DNA from: Paenibacillus sp. G2S3
Lineage (GTDB): Bacteria; Bacillota; Bacilli; Paenibacillales; Paenibacillaceae
Direction of reading: 5' to 3'
DNA: 64,000 bases
NCBI RefSeq assembly: GCF_030123105.1
Contig: NZ_CP126095.1
Location: 5,766,001 to 5,830,000 of the forward strand
Part shown: positions 5,527-58,799 of the stretch, piece after piece
How positions within the stretch are numbered: position 1 is the stretch's first letter
Layout of the letters: every line of letters begins with the position of its first letter
Position numbers and translations under genes: made by a program
Notes under the pieces: model-generated
Database searches by the model: none
Told to the model about the DNA's origin: nothing
What the model saw: only the letters and a program-made list of their open reading frames with translations

Positions 5527-6718
5527 GCTCGTTTACGTTATCGGAGACACACTGTATTCGGTTTTTCGCATACAATCGGCTCGTTTACGTTACTGGCAGC
5601 ACATTGTATTCGGTTTTTCGCATACAATCGGCTCGTTTACGTTACTGGCAGCACATTGTATTCGGTTTTTCGCATACAATCGGCTCGTTTACGTTACTGG
5701 CGGCACATTGTATTCGGTTTTTCGCATACAATCGGCTCGTTTACGTTACTGGCGGCACATTGTATTCGGTTTTTCGCATACAATCGGCTCGTTTACGTTA
5801 CCGGCGGCACATTATATTCGGTTTTTCGCATACATTCGGCTCGTTTACGTTACCGGCGGCACATTATATTCGGTTTTTCGCATACAATCGGCTCGTTTAC
5901 GTTACTGGCAGCACATTGTATTCGGTTTTTCGCATACAATCGGCTCGTTTACGTTACCGGCGGCACATTGTATTCGGTTTTTCGCATACATTCGGCTCGT
6001 TTACGTTACCGGCGGCACATTATATTCGGTTTTTCGCATACATTCGGCTCGTTTACGTTACTGGCAGCACATTGTATTCGGTTTTTCGCATACAATCGGC
6101 TCGTTTACGTTACTGGCGGCACATTGTATTCGGTTTTTCGCATACAATCGGCTCGTTTACGTTACTGGCGGCACATTATATTCGGTTTTCCGCATACATT
6201 CGGCTCGTTTACGGTACTGGCGGCACATTGTATTCGGTTTTTCGCATACAATCGGCTCGTTTACGTTACTGGCGGCACATTGTATTCGGTTTTTCGCATA
6301 CAATCGGCTCGTTCACGTTACCGGCGGCACATTGTATTCGGTTTTTCGCATACACTTGCTCGTTTACGTTACTGGCAGCACATTGTATTCGGTTTTTCGC
6401 ATACATTCGGCTCGTTTACGTTACCGGCGGCACATTATATTCGGTTTTTCGCATACAATCGGCTCGTTTACGTTACTGGCAGCACATTGTATTCGGTTTT
6501 TCGCATACAATCGGCTCGTTTACGTTACCGGCGGCACATTGTATTCGGTTTTTCGCATTCATTCGGCTCGTTTACGTTACCGGCGGCACATTATATTCGG
6601 TTTTTCGCATACATTCGGCTCGTTTACGTTACTGGCAGCACATTGTATTCGGTTTTTCGCATACAATCGGCTCGTTTACGTTACTGGCGGCACATTGTAT
6701 TCGGTTTTTCGCATACAT
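5527..6718. repeat. 52-bp tandem repeat array, 23 copies
   Basis: Twenty-three head-to-tail copies of a 52-bp unit containing TTCGGTTTTTCGCATACAAT and CGGCTCGTTTACGTTA. Counting the TTCGG start point, copies begin at 5557 and recur every 52 bases to 6337; one unit is 51 bases, and the last copy starts at 6700. Copies differ at a few fixed positions (CTGG/CCGG, CAGC/CGGC, TTGTA/TTATA, CAAT/CATT). Each junction holds a short dyad, ATTGTAT to ATACAAT, around 12 bases. Because 52 is not a multiple of three and the unit lacks stops, all three plus frames are open, giving repetitive spurious proteins of 360-409 residues with no ribosome site. Confidence 0.95.
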
Positions 6719-7189
6719 TTGTCCGTAAGCTCGACTAAAACATGCATTTCGGAGGATAAGGTCCGTTCGGTCGTCCCAAAGAGGTGTGTGTTAATTGAAA
6801 ACAAGGCTCCCCATGGCCCCCCGTTGAATATAGGCCCCTCCCTTGATTTCGTTTCCCATTTCTCCGCAGTCTCTTATAGTAAAATAGTTGTATTTCCTAC
6901 ACTTATAAGAAGTATTAGCATTTCCAATCGCCTTTAGTTGTATTTGATGCAATTAAAAATTCAATGTGCTAGCTATTCGGCCTTATGCGGAGAAAATAGT
7001 TGCAGAGAATACACTTAAAAGACTAATTTCCACCCAATATGTGATTTTAATTATACAAAGTGCAGTTATTTGAAAAATACTCCTGTCGCCCGAGCGGCAT
7101 TTGTAGCCAGTGTGGCCTTGGGAGGCTGAGTGACCTTGTTGGCCCAAGCGACCTGGCAGGGGCTGAGTATTCTCTAATCTCAGCATTAC
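6719..7189. other. Intergenic region holding four-dyad cluster 1
   Basis: About 470 bases between the 52-bp array and the zwf terminator, with no convincing gene. Its main content is the regularly spaced dyad cluster at 6885-7068, listed separately. Confidence 0.6.
6885..7068. repeat. Four-dyad repeat element, copy 1
   Basis: Four 21-bp imperfect palindromes with 8-base arms and a 5-base centre, consensus TARTTGYA-N5-TRCARYTA, at 6885-6905, 6935-6955, 6997-7017 and 7048-7068. Start-to-start distances are 50, 62 and 51. The same arrangement (51, 62, 51) recurs at 58615-58799, so this is a defined element and not chance palindromes. CGGAGAA lies just before the third dyad in both copies. Function unknown. 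Confidence 0.8.
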
Positions 7190-7237: not shown

Positions 7238-8789
7238 TTAGTTATTCTTCAGCCATACTACATTATCTTCTTCCTGACCGTTTACCGGCCACCAATGGAA
7301 GCCATCCTGAGCGAGCAATTGATCCGCTTCAACCGGACCCCAAGTGCCAGCAGGATAAGCAGATAGATCACTTGATTCTTCCTTCCAAGCCTTCGCAATA
7401 CGATCCACGAATGACCATGCCGACGATACCTCATCCCAACGAGTGAAATAAGTGGAATCTCCGCGTGCGGCATCATGAAGCAAGCGCTCGTAAGCTTCCG
7501 GAGAATTGATTCCAACCAAACAGCTCTGACAGAAGTCCATAGCAAGCGGTTGAATTTCAGACTCGGAACCCGGCTTCTTGGCATTGATCTTTACATAAAT
7601 GCCTTCCATTGGGTTCACACGGATAACAAGCAGGTTAGGCTCCAGTGTATGCTTTTGTCCCAAATAAACATTGGTTGGCATTCCCTTGAACTCAACTACC
7701 ACTTCCGTTGTCTTCACCGGCAGACGTTTACCTGTACGAATGTAGAATGGAACTCCAGCCCAGCGGAAGTTATCTACAAACACACGGGCAGCAAAATACG
7801 TCTCAGTACTCGATTCAGGATCAACCTTATCTTCCTGACGATAAGCAGGAAGGGTCTTCCCATTGTGCAAGCCTTGAATATACTGTGCTCTCACGACATT
7901 CTCACGAACCTCGTCAGATGTACCATAAGGACGAAGTGAACGAAGTACCTTCACCTTCTCGTCACGAATATCTTCTGCAAGCAGACGGCTTGGTGGTTCC
8001 ATCGCGATCATAGTCAGCAGTTGCAATATATGATTTTGGCCCATGTCCCGTAAGGCTCCAGCATGGTCATAGTAACCACCACGCTCTTCAACACCTACGG
8101 TTTCGCCAAGTGTAATTTGAATATTGGCAATATGCTTATTATTCCAAAGCGGCTCGAAAAAAGCATTGGCAAAACGAATGACTTCGATATTCTGAACCAT
8201 TTCTTTACCAAGATAATGATCGATCCGGTAGATCTCCTCTTCCTTGAATACCTCACGGATCTGCTCGTTCAAGCTGCTCAGCTGACTCCAGGTTATATCC
8301 AAAAGGCTTCTCGATGACGAGGCGATTCCATCCTGTGCTATCCAGCATGCCGCCAGCCTTAAGGTTGAACGAAACACTACCGAACAATTCAGGTGCGAGC
8401 GCAAGATAGAACATCCGATTGCCCGGAATTCTGAACTTCTCTTCAAGAGCTTCTGTTTGAGCTCTTAATTCACGGAAGCCATCAATATCGTTGATGTCCA
8501 GAGATTTGTATTCAAAATGCTGTACAAACTCATTCCATTCGCTCTCTTCTCCCGCTTTATAACGGCAGAATTCAAGGATGGATTCCTTCACATCACTTCT
8601 AAATTCTTCCTGAGTACGCGGGCGCCGCGCCACGCCAATTACCGCAAAATCATGTGCCAGCTTACCTTCACGGTACAAGCTGTAAATCGCCGGGAAAAGC
8701 TTACGCCGGGCTAAATCTCCGGTTGCCCCAAAGATAAAAAAGACAGCACCGGGTGTGTGCAGTGCATCAAGGGTTTGATTTTCAGCCAT
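7238..8789 (-). CDS. zwf: Glucose-6-phosphate 1-dehydrogenase, frameshifted
   Basis: First enzyme of the oxidative pentose phosphate pathway, making 6-phosphogluconolactone and NADPH. The N-terminal part has the Rossmann motif GATGDLARRKLFP (about residue 20) and the catalytic-lysine motif EKPFGYNL. The second part, in another frame, has the substrate-binding RIDHYLGKE and the conserved C-terminal domain. The break is near 8274: AESAEQL should run into NEQIREVF. One surplus base accounts for it, and removing it gives 516 residues, the normal length. The gene is monocistronic, with its own terminator. Confidence 0.92.
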
Positions 8790-58614: not shown

Positions 58615-58799
58615 TAGTTGCAAAAAGTACAACTAACCTTTGATATTCGTTACTGCGTCCTAGTGTAATTGCATAATGTACAACTATTTTTCGAGAATCC
58701 CGCCAAATACGGAGAATTGTTCGTTTTTAAGTGTACAGAGTGCAGTTAAATCCAAAAAAAGCACCTTCAAAGCATATATAGCTGCACAACATACAACTA
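58615..58799. repeat. Four-dyad repeat element, copy 2
   Basis: Dyads at 58615-58635 (TAGTTGCA-N5-TACAACTA), 58666-58686, 58728-58748 and 58779-58799, start-to-start 51, 62, 51 bases. Nearly every dyad pairs a half-site ending TGCA with one ending TGTA. Same layout as 6885-7068. Function unknown. Confidence 0.8.

Follow-up and report, generated by a model that had tools for sequence, protein, structure and literature searches.

The window, a 64,000-nucleotide stretch of the Paenibacillus sp. G2S3 chromosome (hereafter G000; one contig of 6,698,229 bp), contains two copies of an element that consists of four dyads, each with two 8-base half-sites around a 5-base centre. The positions of the eight dyads (58615, 58666, 58728 and 58779 in one copy; 6885, 6935, 6997 and 7048 in the other) and their spacings (51/62/51 and 50/62/51), as given in an earlier note on this DNA, are correct. 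The features are:

58615..58799, no strand assigned, four-dyad element of class A (defined below), 185 bp, spacings 51/62/51
58615..58635, no strand assigned, dyad 1 of the 58615 element, TAGTTGCA-AAAAG-TACAACTA
58666..58686, no strand assigned, dyad 2 of the 58615 element, TAATTGCA-TAATG-TACAACTA
58728..58748, no strand assigned, dyad 3 of the 58615 element, TAAGTGTA-CAGAG-TGCAGTTA
58779..58799, no strand assigned, dyad 4 of the 58615 element, TAGCTGCA-CAACA-TACAACTA
6885..7068, no strand assigned, four-dyad element of class A, 184 bp, spacings 50/62/51, downstream of zwf
6885..6905, no strand assigned, dyad 1 of the 6885 element, TAGTTGTA-TTTCC-TACACTTA
6935..6955, no strand assigned, dyad 2 of the 6885 element, TAGTTGTA-TTTGA-TGCAATTA
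6997..7017, no strand assigned, dyad 3 of the 6885 element, TAGTTGCA-GAGAA-TACACTTA
7048..7068, no strand assigned, dyad 4 of the 6885 element, TAATTATA-CAAAG-TGCAGTTA, left half-site damaged in G000 only

The damaged half-site TAATTATA at 7048 reads TAATTGTA in the orthologous copies of the relatives G127, G007 and G001; the ortholog of the 58615 element is tandemly repeated in G001. With up to 3 mismatches allowed, the dyad pattern matched the window 25 times (both strands counted), compared with a mean of 9.65 and a maximum of 16 in shuffled sequences, and, when scored for four dyads in register regardless of class, complete elements reached 61–68, whereas 1.2 Mb of sequence shuffled from the window did not exceed 45. 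A TGCA arm facing a TGTA arm, which had been described for nearly every dyad, is indeed found in 6 of the 8 dyads of the window (the exceptions are one TGTA/TGTA dyad and the damaged one) but does not hold as a general rule: the arms differ at this base in 227 of 408 class A dyads, a mild excess over the 206 expected from shuffling. The word CGGAGAA, reported to precede the third dyad in both copies, starts 18 bp ahead of it in one copy and 9 bp in the other and is therefore out of register, and the aligned linkers contain no such word.

Two other features are located near the 6885 element. At positions 5527-6717, a 52-bp unit is repeated 22.9 times in tandem, and every copy contains an inverted repeat with a longer spacer (ATTGTAT...ATACAAT); the array, with a period near the 51-bp dyad spacing, stops ~170 bp ahead of the element, and related sequences are present in another G000 locus (L021) and in G007. 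The zwf gene (glucose-6-phosphate dehydrogenase) is split into two overlapping frames (7238-8446 and 8253-8789); it is a single frame of ~518 codons in nearly all of the 61 genomes searched, and the split reflects either a frameshift or a sequencing error.

Copy number and geometry of the four-dyad elements

The G000 chromosome harbors many more dyads of this motif than those in the window. The stretches read contain 30 complete elements, all near 51/62/51 bp, of which 14 belong to class A, with the half-sites TARNTGYA as in the window, and 16 to class B, with the half-sites CTATTGCA, TGATTGCA, TCATTGCA, CTGTTGCA and similar ones. Degenerate copies and lone dyads are present as well, most of the dyads being part of four-dyad units. 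Across 48 other genomes of the genus, the number of class A-like dyads per genome ranges from 0 to 298, compared with 0 to 10 for a reversed-pattern control.

Among 101 class A elements from six genomes, collected mostly by model search, 67 have the exact 51/62/51 spacing and the remaining 34 deviate by at most one base per gap. In a less biased test, loci were identified in named genomes by the pattern of dyads 1 and 2 alone; of these 42 loci, from Paenibacillus (P. wynnii, P. tepidiphilus, P. phytohabitans, P. typhae and others) and Cohnella terricola, 36 have dyads 3 and 4 in place, three (L219, L220 and L224) are cut by the end of the locus, and three (L216, L218 and L240) appear to be split by other insertions. 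Two of the outcomes that the earlier note had set against its proposal, a lack of further copies and single dyads at random spacing, did not occur: the scan found many copies of the four-dyad plan in G000 and in other genomes, with strict spacing.

Several individual loci display additional arrangements. In P. typhae (L216:7140-7300), a small insertion, whose inverted ends are GAGACAATTTCATAA/TTATGAAATTGTCT, splits the third dyad of an element, and a class B-like remnant comes after it. In G000 (L015:4915-5263), a class B and a class A element have one dyad in common, CTATTGCACAAAGTGCACTTA, the left half of which is class B and the right half class A. In the viral contig IMGVR_UViG_2879483077_000001 (L058:54-442) and in L121, there is tandem expansion by a dyad-plus-linker unit of ~50 bp; only one 62-bp gap is present, and the expansion lies to one side of it. 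The 14 complete class A elements read in G000 are all located outside the interval from about 2.29 to 5.05 Mb, in which class B elements are present; this gap may be due to chance, and elements are listed in the corresponding region of G001 and G022.

Helical phasing, symmetry and arm statistics

The linkers of unrelated copies have no word in common (67 elements aligned, 43 after removal of near-identical copies); only the dyads and the geometry are conserved. The A/T content of the linkers swings from ~20% to 95% with a period of 10.0–10.2 bp, in step with the dyads. After removal of near-identical copies, the power of this period was 1.16 in class A (n = 67; at most 0.037 in 300 permutations, 0.056 in the flanks) and 1.30 in class B (n = 16; at most 0.132 in 300 permutations, 0.102 in the flanks), and the period was also recovered from elements found by the dyad pattern only, both in G000 (0.633, n = 13; at most 0.157 in 200 shuffles) and in the named genomes (1.229, n = 38; at most 0.049 in 200 shuffles). 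In nucleosomal DNA, A/T-rich minor grooves face inward and, by analogy, the phasing of the linkers is the pattern that we would expect for DNA bent steadily towards protein, with its A/T-rich minor grooves inside, although what the period shows is a bending preference and not wrapping as such. The dyad centres are T-rich in dyads 1 and 2 and A-rich in dyads 3 and 4, so that the whole element is an inverted repeat at the motif level.

Two readings of the element had been proposed at the outset, a binding platform with the dyads on one face and a folded RNA with four hairpins, for which compensatory changes in the arms were to be sought. We compared the two arms in 408 class A dyads (near-identical copies were removed, from 218 to 125 elements, 102 of them of class A, and three elements of an intermediate word class were excluded from the two class counts). 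At three variable positions, the two arms agree in fewer dyads than shuffled arms do, namely, at position 3 (165 vs 199.7, z = -3.5), position 4 (123 vs 155.6, z = -4.25) and position 7 (181 vs 201.9, z = -2.05). Within a half-site, in contrast, positions 4 and 7 are coupled: A or G at position 4 is accompanied by T at position 7 in 155 of 171 cases, C by C in 138 of 197, and T by either. Four inverted repeats with 5-base loops would be compatible with four hairpins, but the poor match between the arms speaks against them; at the inner pair, 18 of the 56 G000 dyads have C facing A (the 16 T-G cases are the same mismatch on the opposite strand), the spacing changes by whole helical turns (see below), and an Rfam scan of the window at the gathering score detected rRNA and tRNA genes only, with nothing at the elements. 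A structured RNA is, in our estimate, extremely unlikely. The platform reading, in which the dyads lie on one face of the duplex, is the one that the many copies, the strict spacing, the spacing variants of one turn, the 10-bp A/T period of the linkers and the conservation of the dyads point to.

Half-site words and spacing variants in Paenibacillales

A search with the model R2, built from 17 class A and 14 class B elements, matched at least 108 of 296 Paenibacillales genomes, from at least 23 of 48 genera, at E ≤ 1e-5 among the best 8 candidates per genome. Both R2 and the model R1 carry linker preferences, so these counts lean towards phased elements, and with the best 8 candidates per genome for the order and the best 6 for the class, absence is weak evidence. 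In a 398-genome sample of the class, which included members of the order, the best 6 candidates per genome contained only three weak partial matches outside Paenibacillales (E = 1.3e-5, 3.5e-5 and 8.8e-5), and we judged these to be chance matches. Plasmids and phages yielded no match, with one query element each; among viral contigs, one Paenibacillus contig (L058) carries a dyad array next to ABC-transporter genes, and none was found with two other word patterns.

The elements are built with diverse half-site words, including TTGTTGTA in G183, G187 and G225, TGAATGCA/TGCCTGCA in G122, TAGTTGGA in G057, TAACTGGA/TAACTGTA in G123 and G190, ATGTTGCA in G085 and G101, and TCGTTGTA/TCATTGCA in G195; words with a four-base centre are present in G030 and G299. 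A free spacing scan (middle spacing 45–79, outer 47–56) of loci originally found with R2 gave scores of 53–61.5 for the elements and 39.5–46 for the best shuffled sequences. The middle spacing is 72–73 in all 5 G195 elements, 62 in all 3 elements of G101 and both of G183, and 52 in 8 of the 10 G085 elements, the other 2 of which have a spacing of 62 and bear another word. The middle spacings of 52, 62 and 72–73 thus differ by whole helical turns, and in G085 the spacing goes with the word.

Conservation at orthologous sites and change of the word in place

In nine pairs of orthologous elements of G000 and G001, picked by the presence of the motif in both genomes, 353 of 360 specified dyad bases are identical, compared with 619 of 908 linker bases and 1063 of 1532 flanking bases, and all 28 changes at R/Y positions preserve R or Y. 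The expectation that the dyads are kept while the rest drifts is thus borne out. Three more class A sites (L010, L013 and L024), placed by synteny alone, are intact in G001; of the last two class A sites, L015 has its place in G001 occupied by several class A elements, and L018 was not located in that genome. The copy downstream of zwf (6885 in the window), with its one damaged half-site in G000, is intact in the relatives G127, G007 and G001; at 26 of the 30 zwf loci read, including one with a class B element (G015), it was not found within 1.5 kb of zwf. Given its presence at only 4 of 30 loci and its integrity in the relatives, this copy was probably acquired by a small clade, which has since retained it. 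That it was not found at most of the loci counts against the explanation favored below.

Class B, which is still present in G001 (L116), follows a different course. Of the ten G000 class B sites examined, only one (L027) is retained in G001; two have changed word (L186 and L181), three are damaged (L009, L013 and L187), three lack an element (L180, L183 and L184), and one carries a class A tandem instead (L182). Hence, not every copy is kept, which counts against the explanation that we favor below. In the two cases of word change, the number of class A half-sites goes from 0 of 8 in G000 to 7 of 8 in G001 (L186/L121) and from 0 of 8 to 5 of 8 (L181/L349), as read from the sequences; one pairwise alignment sets some of these dyads elsewhere.

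Genomic context and multiplication of the elements

The elements prefer gene ends. Of 99 elements, 31 are located between convergent genes and 8 between divergent genes, compared with 17 and 28, respectively, of 123 background gaps of at least 100 bp (Fisher p = 0.002 for the excess of convergent and 0.003 for the deficit of divergent contexts; these counts come from crude ORF calls with orthologous loci counted twice, and the p values are uncorrected for that). The 30 flanking proteins scanned have unrelated, mostly housekeeping functions. The possibility that the elements are operators of a large regulon, with a global regulator acting on the genes beside each of them, finds some encouragement in the palindromic, operator-like dyads and in the location of some elements upstream of a gene (e.g., L009, hisF); however, it does not fit with the unrelated neighbors, the rarity of divergent placement and a four-dyad unit that stays the same with any neighboring gene, and we consider it improbable.

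The products of the genes beside lone G000 dyads include a chemotaxis receptor, a cold-shock protein, a MazE-like antitoxin, PTS, BlaR1-like peptidase, glycoside hydrolase-like and ABM family proteins, and two proteins without a match, with no sequence-specific regulator among them; proximity to lone dyads was accordingly rejected as a guide to the partner gene. No protein family with a distribution following that of the elements was found, and the partner protein was not identified among the neighbors scanned. Several phased dyads per site, the occurrence of hybrid dyads, and the tandem growth of elements by one dyad unit (L058, L121 and L015) are also features that one could expect of a resolvase-like recombination site or a centromere-like segregation site, with each dyad bound by a recombinase or a partition protein. 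Tens of chromosomal copies in both orientations would, however, make dangerous crossover sites, and no gene of such a system lies beside the elements whose neighbors were scanned, so that we regard this role as very improbable.

Copies within one genome are often homologous only as far as the outer dyads, and G044 includes copies that are 95–97% alike; the elements therefore multiply. Such multiplication need not be expected of a purely host-owned site and counts against the explanation that we favor. The main alternative is a selfish, non-autonomous mobile element, in which the dyads would be sites of a transposase or recombinase and the phasing would reflect the geometry of a synaptic complex, with no gain to the host. 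Besides the ends of homology and the near-identical copies, the tandem arrays at L110, L112 and L353, the hybrid dyad that elements of the two classes share in G000, and the sites that are empty in relatives would all be accounted for. Against it, 168 elements showed no excess of target duplications of 3–9 bases over shuffles (class A elements end in TA, so a TA-only duplication could escape), Y1 transposase (PF01797, Y1_Tnp) had no match in 16 element-bearing genomes (G000, G001 and 14 others) among the 20 match-free genomes listed, and copies are conserved at orthologous places, the dyads far better than the linkers. No autonomous version came up among the loci read. On balance, we consider a purely selfish element unlikely, albeit with a chance that should be kept in mind. 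Two specific mechanisms were rejected on these grounds: transposition with target duplication, and a RAYT/IS200 transposase as the necessary mobilizer. PF01797 is present in other element-bearing genomes.

The element is absent on one side in five pairs of loci (L180/L352, L183/L351, L156/L393, L155/L405 and L160/L399), in which the intergenic DNA is too divergent for the junction to be read cleanly; in L160/L399, a hybrid dyad stands at the end. In G007 (L158:1600-2508, compared with L186), a ~900-bp repeat that bears one element of each class, and of which L157 has a second copy, is inserted into another class B element, within its end dyad, and is bounded by a short direct repeat.

Discussion

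The explanation that we consider probable is that the four-dyad element is a docking platform on duplex DNA for four protein dimers, with the DNA wrapped, which is kept by selection and is more likely to serve chromosome architecture than any one promoter. Under this scenario, four dimers of a sequence-specific DNA-binding protein (a helix-turn-helix protein would be our guess) would occupy the four dyads on one face of the helix, forming an assembly with two-fold symmetry about the centre of the element. The ~185 bp of DNA, about 18 turns at 10.2 bp, would be bent or wrapped towards the protein, with the A/T-rich minor grooves inward. Each word class would have its own protein and, when the specificity of this protein changed or the protein was lost, the dyads of the standing elements would change word or decay. 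Selection on the host chromosome would keep individual copies, and the complex might constrain supercoils or insulate neighboring transcription units. We infer host use because individual copies are retained, and chromosome architecture rather than a regulon because of the preference for gene ends and the unrelated neighbors.

A more specific and more tentative proposal, which we put at somewhat below even chances, is that the elements act in a manner akin to nucleosome positioning: tens of ~185-bp sites per genome would each have their DNA wrapped around an assembly of four dimers, and the word would be rewritten element by element as the protein changes, with the helical plan (52, 62, 73) fixed. 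Should the elements turn out to be insulators or supercoil anchors, they would constitute an undescribed chromosome-organizing layer across a whole order of spore formers. DNA wrapping in bacteria would become testable at defined chromosomal sites, and the elements that sister species share but spell with a changed word provide a natural experiment in protein-DNA coevolution.

A literature search, with most of the subscription literature beyond its reach, found no description of a four-dyad element, and the sequence words appeared only in one, unrelated paper on human cells; perhaps, the element has not been described because it is a unit defined by architecture rather than by sequence. Several known kinds of dispersed sequences resemble it in part. 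REP/BIME are short palindrome-bearing intergenic units that are present in tens of copies, favor gene ends and multiply within genomes; they are defined by sequence and have RAYT transposases as partners. The four-dyad elements are likewise dispersed and multiplying, with a preference for gene ends, but their copies have only the dyads and the helical phase in common, many genomes that bear them have no match to a Y1 (HUH) transposase, and the arms are not complementary, agreeing less than shuffled ones. The parS, MatS and Noc sites are scattered palindromic sites of a chromosome-organizing protein, with one operator per site, whereas the elements described here have a fixed four-operator geometry. 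MITEs and ERIC/BOX-type repeats are small intergenic units without genes, from which the four-dyad elements differ in lacking target duplications and, in unrelated copies, a common linker sequence. What sets the four-dyad element apart is that helical architecture defines the unit and that its word can be replaced.

We know of no four-dyad 51/62/51 site for the Lrp/AsnC family. Octamers of this family, such as B. subtilis LrpC, are described as four dimers with the HTH domains facing outward, and a nucleosome-like binding of DNA has been proposed for them (PMC8481266). RemA of Bacillus and Geobacillus is described as an octameric ring around which DNA is proposed to wrap, with 10-bp periodic protection (7 bp plus 3 bp); it targets AT-rich direct repeats of low conservation, located upstream of biofilm promoters (PMC8481266). 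The four-dyad elements differ from these RemA sites in using palindromic dyads; as in wrapping sites of the Lrp and RemA type, their sequence is helically periodic, with an A/T period of 10.0–10.2 bp. Among known behaviors, the wrapping that has been proposed for RemA rings and for octamers of the Lrp type (PMC8481266) would come nearest to that of the four-dyad elements.
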